Under the pieces are notes generated by a model. That model was not told the DNA's origin. It ran no database searches and saw nothing but the letters and a program-made list of their open reading frames with translations. Of a stretch of 43,755 bases of DNA, positions 38,676 through 43,755 are shown in pieces. Where the stretch lies: positions 1 through 43,755 of the forward strand of contig JAJPIV010000026.1 of the NCBI GenBank assembly GCA_021324595.1, given 5' to 3'. The stretch's first letter is position 1. Every line of letters begins with the position of its first letter. This DNA is from Actinomycetota bacterium. Lineage in GTDB: Bacteria; Actinomycetota; Actinomycetes; Streptosporangiales; Streptosporangiaceae. A program made the translations under genes and the position numbers.

Positions 38676-39323
38676 TCAGCCGGCCTGAGCCGCCTCGGCC
38701 ATCCAGATCACATCGCTAGCCCGGGCCTGGCTCACCCCCAGGCACCGGGCGATCGCGCCGACCGCGGCGCGCTCGGGCTCACCGAGCCGCCCGCCGTCCA
38801 GGCCGACCTGGACGACCGAGGCGAGGAACCACTCCCTGGCGTGCTCCTCGAGCTGCAGCGCGAGCCGCTCGATCACCAGGCCGCCCGGCTCGCTGCCCGG
38901 CCGCGCGACCGGGTCGCCGGCCGCGGCGAGGTCGCGGGCCAGGCTGTCCTCGCCGTACCCAGCCACGCCCGACCGCCTGATCAGATCCACGGCCCGCCGC
39001 CGGGTCGCCGGGCTCGGCGGGCGAGCGGCGGCGCAGCCCGCCCGCAGGACGGCCAGGACCGCAGCCTTCGTGCCCGCGGCCAGCGCCGCGCGCATCTGCG
39101 CGACCGTCGGGACGGCGAGGAGCTCGACGCGGTAGCAGGTCTGGCAGACCGTGCAGGCCAGGTGCTCGGCGGCAGCTCCGGCGGGGACCAGCGGCACGCC
39201 GAGCAGGTGCATCCACCGCCGCCCCGCCCGCCGCCAGATCGCGCGATCGCCGCCGCAGCGCTCGCAGTGCGCGACCCCGCGACCCACCGTCCGGTAGAGC
39301 GTCCTCCAGCCGACCAGGCTCAT
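38676..39323 (-). CDS. TerB-like protein with N-terminal zinc ribbon
   Basis: A protein of 215 residues. The N-terminal zinc ribbon CERCG (Cys20, Cys23) and CTVCQTC (Cys57, Cys60, Cys63) is followed by a TerB-type all-helical region (WFLASVVQVGLDGGRLGEPERAAVGAIARCLGV). Proteins of this form are widespread in actinobacteria near recO; tellurite resistance is not shown for them. ATG 39323 has GGAGG 5 nt upstream. It lies 100 nt before recO and 188 nt after era. Confidence 0.8.
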   Translation of the reverse strand: MSLVGWRTLYRTVGRGVAHCERCGGDRAIWRRAGRRWMHLLGVPLVPAGAAAEHLACTVCQTCYRVELLAVPTVAQMRAALAAGTKAAVLAVLRAGCAAARPPSPATRRRAVDLIRRSGVAGYGEDSLARDLAAAGDPVARPGSEPGGLVIERLALQLEEHAREWFLASVVQVGLDGGRLGEPERAAVGAIARCLGVSQARASDVIWMAEAAQAG

Positions 39324-39510
39324 CGTTGCCTCCAACCCGCCTGCAGATGGCGAGCAGCCCCCGGGCGCTCACACGCCAGCGGCCCGATCATCACACGAAC
39401 CCGGCCGTCAGGCGAGCAGTTCAGGAGAACATCTGCCTGTCGCCAGCAATCGTGCGCATCGCCATGACCTGCGGATTCGCCCCGGCGGGCCGGCCGGGCG
39501 CGCGCTCCGG

Positions 39511-40452
39511 TCAGTCGTAGAACCCCAGCCTGCGGAGCTGCCGCGGATCCCGCTGCCAGTCCCTGGCCACCTTCACCCTCAGGTCGAGGAAGACCCGGCT
39601 GCCGAGCAGCGCCTCGATCTGGCGCCTGGCCCGCGAGCCGACCTCGCGGAGCCGCGAGCCCTCGGAGCCGATCACGATCGCCTTCTGGCTGGGCCGCTCG
39701 ACGTACATCACCGCGTGTACGTCGATCAGGTCCGCACGGCCTTGCCTCGGTGCCATCTCCTCGACCACCACGGCGACCGAGTGCGGCAGCTCATCGCGCA
39801 AGTCCTCCAGGATCGCCCCCCGGATCAGCTCGGCGACCAGGTGCTGCTCGGGCTCGTCGGTGAGCTCCCCGTCCGGGTAGAGCGGGCGGCCCGGCGGCAG
39901 GTGGCCGATCAGCACCGCGGCGAGCACATCGAGCTGGAACCCGGTGACGGCGGAGACCGGCACGATGTCGGCCCAGTCCCCCAACGCGGCGACCGCGGCA
40001 AGCTGGCGCGCCACCCGCTCCCGGGGCGCCTGGTCGGCCTTGGTCACGATCGCCACGACCGGCGTCCCGGCCTGCCGGGACAGCTCGGCGGCCAGGTGCG
40101 TGTCACCCGGCCCGACTCGCTCGGAGGCGGGGACGCAGAAGCCGATCACGTCGACTTCGGCCAGGGTGGACCGGGCGAGGCTATCCAGGCGCTCGCCGAG
40201 CAACGTCCTGGGGCGATGGAGCCCGGGAGTGTCGAGGATCACAAGCTCGGCGTGGTCCCGCCGGACGATCCCCCGGATGACGCCTCGCGTGGTCTGCGGC
40301 CGGCTGCTGGTGATCGCCACCTTCGCGCCGACGAGCGCATTCATCAGGGTCGACTTGCCGACGTTGGGCCTGCCGACGAAGCAGGCGAACCCGGCCACGG
40401 ACTGCTCGCCGGCATCCGGCTCGGCGCCGGGGCGGCCCGACGGCTCGTTCAC
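39511..40452 (-). CDS. era: GTPase Era
   Basis: A protein of 313 residues. G1 is GRPNVGKS (27-34), G3 DTPG, G4 TKAD and G5 SAVTG. The C-terminal KH domain includes AIVIGSEGSRLREVGSRARRQIE. Era binds 16S rRNA during small-subunit assembly. GTG 40452 is used; its GGGAG is further upstream than usual. It follows the cytidine-deaminase-like gene by 90 nt, the normal order in actinobacteria. Confidence 0.97.
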   Translation of the reverse strand: MNEPSGRPGAEPDAGEQSVAGFACFVGRPNVGKSTLMNALVGAKVAITSSRPQTTRGVIRGIVRRDHAELVILDTPGLHRPRTLLGERLDSLARSTLAEVDVIGFCVPASERVGPGDTHLAAELSRQAGTPVVAIVTKADQAPRERVARQLAAVAALGDWADIVPVSAVTGFQLDVLAAVLIGHLPPGRPLYPDGELTDEPEQHLVAELIRGAILEDLRDELPHSVAVVVEEMAPRQGRADLIDVHAVMYVERPSQKAIVIGSEGSRLREVGSRARRQIEALLGSRVFLDLRVKVARDWQRDPRQLRRLGFYD

Positions 40453-40542: not shown

Positions 40543-40890
40543 TCACGGAGCGTAGATGTGGCGGACGGCTCCGTCGGAGCCGGCGTGGATGATCAGCGCA
40601 CCCGGGCCTGCGTCGCGCACCGTGGCGATGTCGGCGGGGCCCGGCGGCTGCCCGTCGCTGACCATGGCTGCGGCCTCGAGCGACGACGCGCCGCTGGAGA
40701 CCGCCATCGCGACCGCCAGCGCCAGCGCGGACAGCTGGAGCGAGGGCAGCGCGACCGTGGCGGCGGCGTAGGTGCGGCCAGTCTCATCCCTGACGGCAGC
40801 ACCCTCGGCGGAGCCGACGCGAGCCCGGGCGGCCCGGGCCAGCGTGATGATCTTCTCGTCCTCGGGCCCGAGGTCATGAGCCTCGTTCAC
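40543..40890 (-). CDS. Cytidine deaminase-like protein lacking the zinc site
   Basis: A protein of 115 residues starting MNEAHDLGPEDEKIITLARAA. The body EGAAVRDETGRTYAAATVAL follows the cytidine-deaminase fold, but the HAE zinc/catalytic motif is replaced (LQLSALALAVAMAV) and there is no PCxxC motif. The protein contains no cysteine at all. It cannot use the standard deaminase mechanism. Close relatives with the same gene order between the CBS protein and era are annotated as cytidine deaminase in streptomycetes. GTG 40890 is chosen; ATG 40917 would overlap the upstream gene by 17 nt. Confidence 0.8.
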   Translation of the reverse strand: MNEAHDLGPEDEKIITLARAARARVGSAEGAAVRDETGRTYAAATVALPSLQLSALALAVAMAVSSGASSLEAAAMVSDGQPPGPADIATVRDAGPGALIIHAGSDGAVRHIYAP

Positions 40891-40900
40891 CGCACTGAGC

Positions 40901-42286
40901 TTACTGGCGCGGGCCATCCGGCGGGGGCTGCGGGCGTGCGCCGGGCGGCCGGCTCCCGCCAGGCACCGCGTCCCCGGGCGGCCCCGCCCCGCCGGGCGGG
41001 CCCGCTTCGGCGGCCGGGGCTGCCGGTTCCCCGTCGGCACCGACCCGCTGGACGGTGACCGTCCCGATCCGGTTGCGCCGCCCTGCCAGGCTCTCGGCGG
41101 TCAGCCGCAGCCCGGCCACCACGGCCGTCGATCCCGCGATCGGCACCCGGCCGAGTCTTTGGGCCAGCAGCCCTCCCACGGTCTCCACGTCCTCGGCCTC
41201 GATCCGCACGCCGAACAGCTCGGCCAGCTCATCCACCGGCAAGCGCGCGGTGACGCGGGCCAGGCCCTCGCCGAGCCACTCCACGGCCGGCACGCCGCGG
41301 TCGTATTCGTCGGCGATCTCCCCCACGATCTCCTCGATGATGTCCTCGATCGTGACGAGCCCCGCCGTACCCCCGTACTCGTCGATCACGATGGCAAGGT
41401 GGATCTGCCTGGCCTGCATCTCCCGGAGCAGGTCATCGATCGGCTTGGAGTCGGGCACGAATGTCGCCGGGCGCATCACCGTGGTGACGGGCTGGGTCTC
41501 CATGCTGCCGGGATCCTCGTAGACCCGGGCCACGATGTCCTTCAGGTAGGCGATGCCGATCACGTCGTCCAGGTTCTCCCCCACCACGGGAATCCTCGAG
41601 AAGCCGCTGCGCAGCGCGAGCGACAGCGCCTGCCGAAGGCTCTTGCCGCCTTCCGCGAACACCACGTCCGTGCGCGTCACCATCACCTCGCGGGCGATCG
41701 TCTTGCCGAACTCGAACACCGAGTGGATCATGGCCCGTTCCCCCGGCTCGATGACCCGCCGGCGCTCCAGCAGATCGACCAGGCCCCGGATGTCCTCCTC
41801 CTCTCCCGATGGCCCGGACGGCACCCGCCCCCGGCCCAGCACGCGCCCGGCGCCGAGCAGCATGCCGGGCAGCGGCCCCAGGAGCCGCACGACCGGATGC
41901 ATGACCGAGGCGGCGCCTCGGGCCACGCTCGCGGCATGCTGACGCCCCAGGGCGCGCGGGACGATCCCGGCGGCCAGGTAGATGGTCACGGTCATGACGA
42001 GGGCGGCGATCAGGTACGCGCGCCAGCCCGGGCCGAGCCAGCTCCGCAGCGCCGCCGTCACCAGGACGGTCGCCGCCAGCTCGGCCGCGACCCTGGCCAG
42101 CAGCAGCACGGCCACGTACTCGGGCACCTCGGCGAGGGCCTCCTGCAGGGAGGCCGACGCCTCGTGCCCGGGAGCCGGCAGTTCCCTGGCGCCCGCGCGG
42201 GAGACCCGCAGGAGCGCGGTGTCCGCGCTCGCGCACCAGCCCGCGATCAGCACGAGCGCCGCCGCCGCGACGATCAGCCACCCCAT
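40901..42286 (-). CDS. CNNM/CorC-type membrane protein with CBS domains
   Basis: A protein of 461 residues. The N-terminal DUF21 (CNNM) transmembrane domain has about four hydrophobic segments (residues 1-17 and several between 60 and 145). A CBS pair (VMVTRTDVVFAEGG; TVMRPATFVPDSKPI) and VIDEYGGTAGLVTIEDIIEEIVGEI follow. A CorC_HlyC domain and a Pro/Gly-rich tail close it. Relatives are annotated as hemolysin or as magnesium/cobalt efflux proteins; transport is more likely than toxin activity. ATG 42286 is 9 nt after the ybeY stop. Confidence 0.92.
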   Translation of the reverse strand: MGWLIVAAAALVLIAGWCASADTALLRVSRAGARELPAPGHEASASLQEALAEVPEYVAVLLLARVAAELAATVLVTAALRSWLGPGWRAYLIAALVMTVTIYLAAGIVPRALGRQHAASVARGAASVMHPVVRLLGPLPGMLLGAGRVLGRGRVPSGPSGEEEDIRGLVDLLERRRVIEPGERAMIHSVFEFGKTIAREVMVTRTDVVFAEGGKSLRQALSLALRSGFSRIPVVGENLDDVIGIAYLKDIVARVYEDPGSMETQPVTTVMRPATFVPDSKPIDDLLREMQARQIHLAIVIDEYGGTAGLVTIEDIIEEIVGEIADEYDRGVPAVEWLGEGLARVTARLPVDELAELFGVRIEAEDVETVGGLLAQRLGRVPIAGSTAVVAGLRLTAESLAGRRNRIGTVTVQRVGADGEPAAPAAEAGPPGGAGPPGDAVPGGSRPPGARPQPPPDGPRQ

Positions 42287-42295
42287 GGCCCGGGC

Positions 42296-42997
42296 CTAGC
42301 CGGCGGGCGGGCCCGCGTCCGCCTCCGGCCCGCCCGCCTGGTCGTCCGGGACGGGGCCCGCGGCGCCGGGGGGAACGGCCCGGCCATCGCCGGCCGTGAC
42401 GTCCGGCGGCCCGCCGGCCCCGGGGGCCTGCCCGGATCGGCCAGCCCCGCCGGGCCGGTCGCGCGGCAATCCGCCGGCCCCGCGCCGCACGTCGGTGCCC
42501 GCCGCGCCGGCCGGGCGCCCGCGCGCGGCCCGCCAGGAGGCGAGGAGCCGGTCCTGCAGGCCGAACATCCTCGCGAGCTCCTCGGGCTCGGCGTGGTCGT
42601 ACCCGAGTAGGTGCAGGATGCCGTGGGTGCAGAGCAGGTCGAGCTCGTCCTGGAGGCCGTGACGGGCGCGGCGGGCCTGAGCCGCGGCCACCTGAGGGCA
42701 GATCACGACGTCCCCGAGGATGCTCGGCGGGCCGGAGGAATCCGCGGGCGCCTCCGCCTGCGTGCCTCCCGGGTGGGGCGCCCGCAGCTCGTCCATGGGG
42801 AACGCGAGCACGTCGGTCGGCCCCTCCTCGTCCATCCACTCCTCATGGAGCCTGGCCATGGCGGGCTCATCGACCAGCAGCACCGACAGCTCCGCGAGCG
42901 AATGCACCCCCAGATCGTCGAGCACGTACCTGGCCAGGCGGGACAGTCCCGCCTCGTCCACGGCCACCCCGGACTCATTGACGACCTCGACGCTCAT
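42296..42997 (-). CDS. ybeY: Endoribonuclease YbeY
   Basis: A protein of 233 residues. The zinc site HGILHLLGYDH supplies three His ligands, and LHEEWMDEEGPTDVLAFPMDE is the family N-terminal motif. YbeY matures 16S rRNA 3' ends and joins ribosome quality control. The core ends near residue 165, and about 68 residues of Gly/Pro/Ala-rich tail follow (TDVRRGAGGL onwards), longer than usual. ATG 42997 is the start before VEVVNESG. It sits 52 nt after phoH. Confidence 0.95.
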   Translation of the reverse strand: MSVEVVNESGVAVDEAGLSRLARYVLDDLGVHSLAELSVLLVDEPAMARLHEEWMDEEGPTDVLAFPMDELRAPHPGGTQAEAPADSSGPPSILGDVVICPQVAAAQARRARHGLQDELDLLCTHGILHLLGYDHAEPEELARMFGLQDRLLASWRAARGRPAGAAGTDVRRGAGGLPRDRPGGAGRSGQAPGAGGPPDVTAGDGRAVPPGAAGPVPDDQAGGPEADAGPPAG

Positions 42998-43049
42998 GCC
43001 GCCCCGCCGGGCTCGTCCGCCATCCCGCGCGTCACCCGCGCCGCCCCGC

Positions 43050-43755
43050 TCACCGGTTCCGGCCGCCCTCGCGCCTGGCCCGTCCGCCGGGCAGCCCGGT
43101 CGCCGCGCGGGCCGCGTCATAGCGCGCGTAGGCGTCCACAATCCTCGCGACCAGCTTGTGGCGGACCACGTCGTGCGCGGTGAGCTTGCAGAAGTAGACG
43201 TCGGGCACGTCCTGAAGCACCTCCTGGACCACCCGCAGCCCGCTGACCTGCCCGGCAGGCAGGTCCACCTGGGTCACGTCACCGGTCACGACGACCCGGG
43301 AGCCGAACCCCAGCCTGGTGAGGAACATCTTCATCTGCTCGGGCGAGGTGTTCTGTGCCTCGTCCAGGATGATGAACGAGTCGTTCAGGGACCGGCCGCG
43401 CATGTAGGCCAGCGGCGCGATCTCGATCGTGCCGGCGGCGAGCAGCCGCGGGATCGAGTCCGGATCGACCATGTCGTGCAGGGCGTCGTAGAGCGGCCGC
43501 AGGTACGGGTCGATCTTCTCGTAGAGCGTGCCGGGCAGGAAGCCGAGCCGCTCGCCCGCCTCCACGGCCGGCCGGGTCAGGATGATCCGGTTGACCTCCT
43601 TGGCCTGCAGGGCCTTCACCGCCTTGGCCATCGCCAGGTAGGTCTTCCCCGTCCCGGCCGGGCCGATCGCGAACACGATCGTGTGAGTGTCGATCGCGTC
43701 CACGTAGCGCTTCTGGTTCAGCGTCTTGGGCCGGATCGTGCGGCCGCGCGCGGAC
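43050..43755 (-). CDS. phoH: PhoH family protein (YbeZ-like), C-terminal part
   Basis: This is the C-terminal ~234 residues of a PhoH ATPase; the start lies beyond the right edge. The frame enters as [20 protein letters not shown], followed by Walker A GPAGTGKT, the [18 protein letters not shown] motif and Walker [10 protein letters not shown]. The family links RNA metabolism and ribosome maturation with YbeY. It is first in the chain phoH-ybeY-CBS protein-deaminase-like-era. The tail after YARYDAARA is Gly/Arg-rich and poorly conserved. Confidence 0.95.

Follow-up and report, generated by a model that had tools for sequence, protein, structure and literature searches.

Genes at the locus

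The window analysed here, a stretch of 43,755 nucleotides from an actinobacterial contig (JAJPIV010000026.1), contains a run of genes on one strand in the order phoH, ybeY, corC, a short gene and era, followed by recO and uppS (Table 1). The short gene encodes a zinc-less protein of the cytidine deaminase (CDA) fold, here called pCDA. The original prediction placed it between phoH-ybeY and era; the position is indeed conserved, but corC, which had been passed over, is the gene directly upstream. The ORF, for which no strand had been given, runs on the minus strand. Translation of the same interval on the plus strand meets no stop codon either, and this is put down to GC-rich DNA being readable in antisense. 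In the pCDA frame the longest ORF listed starts at 41040, within corC, which is read in another frame. Position 40890 is the better start, because homologues (L011, for example) align from about this point and the corC ORF ends at 40901. A fusion of CorC and pCDA, suspected from the long open frames, was rejected for locus L104, where the two alignments occupy different frames. Between era and recO there is a 219-residue ORF (38676-39335, minus strand) whose N-terminus may hold a zinc ribbon (PF17032, E 0.0099, below the cut-off).

Table 1. Coordinates of the genes around pCDA and of sites within it.
Feature	Positions	Strand	Description
phoH-like	43050..43703	minus	PF02562, E 2.2e-90, profile matched from position 13; start unrefined, may lie further upstream
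ybeY, endoribonuclease YbeY family	42296..43141	minus	PF02130, E 4e-35; ORF start unrefined
corC/CNNM	40901..42286	minus	PF01595, PF00571, PF03471; directly upstream, ends 10 bases before pCDA start
pCDA	40543..40890	minus	Zinc-less CDA-fold protein, 115 aa; GTG start 40890, stop 40543; from ORF and translation, homologues and model
Helix 1 (predicted)	40816..40866	minus	Residues 9-25, DSSP of model; E10, D11, K13, R19 and R24 each conserved in at least 156 of 157 rows
Beta1-beta2 hairpin	40762..40806	minus	Residues 29-43, EGAAVRDETGRTYAA; R34, D35, R39 and Y41 near-invariant in pCDA, variable in CDAs
S54-A55-L56	40723..40731	minus	At the zinc/catalytic C-A-E site of CDA; predicted start of helix 2
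G-P-A-D, residues 84-87	40630..40641	minus	At the CxxC zinc-ligand site of CDA; no Cys, G84 and D87 replace the two cysteines
era (GTPase Era)	39511..40452	minus	90 bases downstream of pCDA; NF000908, 338 bits (cut-off 237), and TIGR00436

A cytidine deaminase fold below the thresholds of family profiles

Single-sequence annotation gives little indication of what pCDA is. Pfam returns no family at E<=1, and the protein is missing from the matches to TIGR01354 and PF00383 at E<=1 in the window's own genome. It thus does not reach the curated cut-offs for cytidine deaminase. The NCBIfam cytidine deaminase model NF005314 matches it at E 0.004; the score is 17.2 bits against a cut-off of 131, therefore NCBIfam models of this name would not label it an enzyme. 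The one annotated record that was inspected, which has an incomplete gene table, carries no feature at the pCDA site. A second protein match in the window's own genome (L002, E 1e-4) is a chance match to an alanine-rich region in what appears by eye to be a lyase-like reading frame.

The deaminase fold attributed to 40543..40890 by the original prediction is borne out by a profile search and by a predicted structure. The single sequence has one match among PDB sequences, a CDA at E 0.47. A profile of 27 relatives searched against 177,635 PDB sequences has six distinct matches at E<=1, all of them cytidine deaminases, the best being 1mq0 (E 0.0011). The AlphaFold2 model has a mean pLDDT of 94.0. 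CDAs are its top Foldseek matches (best E 4.4e-06), and VIA-align superimposes it on mouse CDA with a Z of 15.5 (rmsd 2.0, 108 residues aligned) and on the B. subtilis enzyme 1jtk with a Z of 15.3; by both methods pCDA belongs to the CDA fold.

Loss of the zinc ligands and of the nucleoside site

The 34 intact CDAs found in the corC-era slot of other classes of the phylum (slot CDAs) served as the comparison set for 157 aligned pCDA rows. C-A-E is present in all 34 slot CDAs; at the same columns the pCDAs have S, T or G, then A, then L, V, I, T or G, with C or E in 0/157. PCxxC is likewise found in 34/34 slot CDAs and 0/157 pCDA rows. The position of its first cysteine holds mixed residues in the pCDAs, and that of the second (position 87) is D in 143/157. 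The window protein is devoid of cysteine over its 115 residues; a cysteine occurs somewhere in 8 of the 157 rows, and in one (L177) the letters CAE are present away from the site. The aligned positions thus confirm what had been proposed for this protein, namely that HAE/CAE and PCxxC are lost and that no cysteine is left. The sequence therefore supports the view that pCDA would be unable to act as a CDA-type enzyme.

The losses extend beyond the metal site. In CDAs the nucleoside is held by residues of the FxVG, NxE and LLPxxF motifs. In nearly all pCDAs YAPYSxF (AYAPYSxF), NVEN and the C-terminal LLPxxF are absent or deleted. The columns that CDA and pCDA have in common are mostly Gly or Ala (A18, G30, G38, A55, A59, G67). 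In the model, helices 2 and 3 are predicted to start at or close to the positions of the former zinc ligands. The S/T and, for the most part, D now found at these positions are typical helix-capping residues, and in the modelled structure they look like helix caps; the ligand positions may have been converted to this use.

Distribution of the zinc-less form

Homologues of pCDA were found in 55 of 60 relatives, and carriers include Streptomyces, Kitasatospora, Actinomadura, Nonomuraea, Streptosporangium, Planobispora and Nocardiopsis. The 157 rows comprise 156 distinct rows and 150 distinct cores; some genomes are represented twice, and the sample is biased to Streptomyces and Streptosporangiales. 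They include 79 of the best 80 loci from one pattern scan. Left out were L126 (extracted in the wrong frame), L023, L024 and L031 (the match ran through a stop) and eight further matches from the search of relatives and the phylum scan. In the 80 pattern-scan loci together with 22 further loci, tblastn places CorC upstream on the same strand in 85/102 and Era downstream in 83/102, the remainder being unresolved. One carrier, NZ_LT559118.1 (L249), is an 11.85-Mb replicon of Nonomuraea gerenzanensis labelled 'plasmid I' that has pCDA, otherwise an era-operon gene; given its size it looks like a chromosome.

Surveyed at the orthologous position, the loss of the zinc motifs is therefore class-wide and old. 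Intact motifs in close relatives, which would point to recent decay in the window genome, were not seen among the loci examined, and intact copies in the slot occur only in other classes. pCDA is a real, old, class-wide pseudo-deaminase and not a case of local decay.

An intact cytidine deaminase in the same slot

The phylum scan gave a match in at least 53 of 396 genomes, with at most 12 candidates scored per genome, so that misses do not equal absences. Eighteen matches are outside the class and 17 of these are intact CDAs. CorC is upstream in 16/17, and the fetched DNA includes a downstream Era in 13/17. The eighteenth (L078) is a chance match in a frame that appears by eye to be aminotransferase-like. 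In 40 era-anchored loci from other classes, an intact-type CDA is upstream of era in 18, a zinc-less one in 0, and neither is found within ~2.8 kb in 22. One of the 18 (L246), a CDA interrupted by masked bases, is included in that count and is outside the 34 slot CDAs. Era is present in the fetched DNA for 30 of these 34 (13/17 from the phylum scan and 17/17 from the era-anchored loci), and the other four have CorC upstream: Era is on another contig in L075 and L079, L072 ends at a contig edge, and L077 has none nearby. Outside the class, Era comes closest to that of the window in G071 and G085 (58%), and both of these genomes have an intact CDA (L222, L223).

The slot is also known from outside the phylum. 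In B. subtilis, cdd occupies the operon position before era. The era operon of S. aureus carries cdd as well, as described in PMC6738653. pCDA shares with such tetrameric CDAs (TIGR01354) both the fold and the position before era, and differs in having no zinc ligands or catalytic Glu, in the loss of YAPYSxF, NVEN and LLPxxF from nearly all members, in a shorter C-terminus, and in a new invariant charged signature.

A tree of 49 zinc-less proteins, the 34 slot CDAs and one other CDA was built from 133 columns and rooted at its midpoint. Many of its inner forks are not resolved; a branch with 100/100 support separates the zinc-less proteins from the CDAs. Of the former, 46 form a 98/90 group to which L092, L097 and L098 do not belong. 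These three have lost the zinc ligands and retain AY[AV]P, with VEN also kept in L092 and L098, and they already have the ED-K / RD-GRTY signature. Over 110 residues L092 shares 40% identity with slot CDA L070, and it is matched by the CDA model TIGR01354 at 6.7e-12. Each of the three transitional forms belongs to a different family of the class (f12, f18 and f19), and all are on the plus strand (L092 from 2699, L097 from 2150 and L098 from 2675); L098 has a long Pro/Ala-rich insert before helix 3.

The shared slot, the identity between L092 and L070 and the branch in the tree agree in deriving pCDA from an era-operon CDA. Sequence, position and tree thus support pCDA being the class-wide descendant of the CDA that fills the corC-era slot elsewhere in the phylum, an active enzyme having apparently been converted once into a zinc-less clade. 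Because the basal forms are zinc-less, already carry the signature and keep remnants of the nucleoside site, both the loss of zinc and the new signature would have been in the ancestor of the clade, and the remnants would have eroded later. In this sequence of events the common ancestor would have lost the zinc site a single time, with YAPYSxF, NVEN and LLPxxF disappearing afterwards and purifying selection keeping the protein where it survives. At a single chromosomal address one therefore finds the enzyme still active in other classes, forms in transition, a zinc-less family that has become fixed, and subsequent losses.

A predicted charged surface and a probable binding function

Counts at 18 chosen positions show which residues the pCDAs have fixed. 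E10, D11, R24, R34, R39 and Y41 are in 157/157 rows and K13, R19 and D35 in 156/157; G38 and A55 do not vary either, and T40 is kept in 155/157, E72 in 154/157 and S66 in 153/157. The nine charged or aromatic residues first named are all on helix 1 and the beta1-beta2 hairpin. In the model helix 1 has 17 residues and spans ~25 A, and strand 1 has 7 residues and spans ~23 A. Since helix 1 is antiparallel to strand 1 and of similar length, E10, D11 and K13 are expected to be beside R34, D35 and R39, which in the modelled topology would put the charged patch at the far side of the fold from the old active site. Not every residue fits: R24, at the opposite end of helix 1, would be closer to the old pocket, and S66 and E72 are found in other parts of the fold.

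pCDA is probably a non-catalytic binding or adaptor protein of the CDA fold, with a new charged patch that would lie mostly away from the old pocket. It may act as a small module, perhaps still as an oligomer like the CDAs, that binds a protein or RNA partner through the charged surface formed by the N-terminus of helix 1 (E10, D11, K13) and the hairpin (R34, D35, R39). The neighbours of the gene make it likely that this partner would be within the Era/YbeY/CorC set, with pCDA in an auxiliary role. In S. aureus, the interaction data in PMC6738653 have Era not interacting with the era-operon Cdd by two-hybrid or split-luciferase assay, and interacting weakly with YbeY. The absence of an Era-Cdd interaction in these two assays disfavours a simple Era partner. 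A more specific history can be put forward tentatively: at the base of the class the active era-operon CDA might have become an auxiliary factor dedicated to ribosome maturation or to the CorC/Era/YbeY module, gaining the charged patch before the nucleoside site had fully eroded. If true, pCDA would represent an actinobacterial protein family not recognised before, whose path from enzyme to adaptor can be traced.

The original prediction suggested that RNA or nucleotides might be bound. Some retained affinity of the old pocket for a nucleoside, nucleotide or RNA base, without deamination, would also be in keeping with the CDA fold and with the neighbours ybeY and era, whose products are described in PMC6738653 as acting on 16S rRNA. 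The invariant arginines R19, R24, R34 and R39 could contact phosphate, and R24 may adjoin the old pocket. However, FxVG, NxE and LLPxxF, which the 34 slot CDAs keep, have disappeared from nearly all pCDAs, and the modelled topology would put most of the new invariants away from the nucleoside pocket, making such a remnant rather unlikely as the function that has been kept.

A partnership with a CDA encoded elsewhere, in which pCDA would be a regulatory or structural subunit of a mixed tetramer, has a precedent in ADAT3, a deaminase-fold pseudo-subunit that according to PMC8216470 is inactive alone and works with ADAT2. The window genome does have a separate intact CDA (L082, with CAE and PCxxC). 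However, 8 of 51 genomes with pCDA have no other CDA-family match at E<=1e-8 (seven have none at all and G049 only its own pCDA), some of these perhaps being assembly gaps, while all 20 of the 20 genomes without pCDA do have a CDA match. This is the reverse of an obligate partnership. An ADAT3-like obligate co-occurrence with a catalytic paralogue is thus not what the genomes display, within the reach of possible assembly gaps in the 8/51, and an obligate heteromer is unlikely as the main role; a regulatory or structural subunit function is improbable. A separate CDA-family match is usual in the class (63 of 71 genomes tested; motifs were checked for L247, L248 and L082), and pCDA should not be counted as a cytidine deaminase in reconstructions of actinobacterial pyrimidine salvage. 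Seven genomes of the class that are at least 93% complete (G014, G041, G044, G046, G050, G051 and G053) have no match to the tetrameric CDA model at E<=1e-8.

It is very improbable that pCDA is a new enzyme built on the CDA scaffold, metal-free or with another set of ligands. Sequence alone cannot reveal catalysis, and L092 indicates that the pocket had not yet fully eroded when the invariant charged residues were already present; against this, there is no invariant His or Cys, most of the invariants belong to helix 1 and the hairpin, S66 and E72 being exceptions, and no obvious cluster in a pocket is seen.

Selection and dispensability

A decaying gene or a misread ORF, for which the lack of a Pfam match and the losses in several families and inside one genus might speak, is hardly credible: the 157 homologous rows share at least nine positions that scarcely vary, dN/dS is like that of Era, the fold is predicted with high confidence, and the frame is open in the window, where no disabling change was seen. 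Median pairwise dN/dS is 0.32 for pCDA, 0.35 for Era, 0.46 for CorC and 0.44 for YbeY, values that are good only for comparing genes, since dS is near saturation in this GC-rich DNA and the pairs are not independent. The resemblance to Era in dN/dS and the invariance or near-invariance of at least nine charged or aromatic positions show that pCDA is not a pseudogene. It is under selection, and the suggestion in the original prediction that the protein had been retained holds.

At 80 named loci, chosen by similarity to pCDA, median identity to the window protein is 65.8% for pCDA and 65.3% for Era (67 loci). In the 22-locus survey of the class the medians are 58.5% for pCDA, 67.2% for Era and 58.5% for YbeY, and pCDA is below Era in 20/20 pairs.

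Absence of pCDA was judged only at era-anchored loci in 23 genomes, three of which (G017, G040 and G054) had no Era match and were uninformative. In the 20 class genomes with Era and without a pCDA match, corC overlaps era or ends no more than ~70 bases away in 19. At the other locus (L186) the place expected for pCDA, between corC and era, is taken up by ~848 bases that show no similarity to CDA. In genus g38 the slot is empty at L187, L190, L193 and L196-L198 and filled at L057-L060 and L080. As this genus shows both states, pCDA appears to have been lost more than once. It is dispensable, and Era and CorC can do without it. The auxiliary role proposed above follows from these lineages, which lost pCDA and yet keep corC and era. 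Why a dead enzyme is kept elsewhere is a question that can be tested directly in Streptomyces.

Relation to other pseudo-deaminases

Pseudo-enzymes of the deaminase fold are already known, and pCDA adds a zinc-less one at the corC-era slot. A study of the pCDA family, or of a bacterial CDA pseudoenzyme, was not found in the open-licence literature. The C-terminal domain of the dimeric CDA of the E. coli type (1ctt residues 188-294) is also a zinc-less, non-catalytic CDA domain. The pCDA model aligns to it with a Z of 11.1 over 95 residues. It is part of a two-domain enzyme chain, whereas pCDA is free-standing, and the two losses of zinc were presumably independent. ADAT3/Tad3 resembles pCDA in being a member of the deaminase superfamily without the catalytic Glu, and is described in PMC8216470 as a non-catalytic partner. 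Unlike pCDA it keeps zinc, belongs to the TadA branch, is eukaryotic and works with ADAT2; no such obligate partner is indicated for pCDA.

In mycobacteria the hypothetical protein Rv2365c, encoded between era and a CorC-like gene, is by gene order presumably the pCDA orthologue. It is listed as 'ydbL' by the method SSEalign in PMC6528289, a label that, if the orthology holds, the present evidence does not support.
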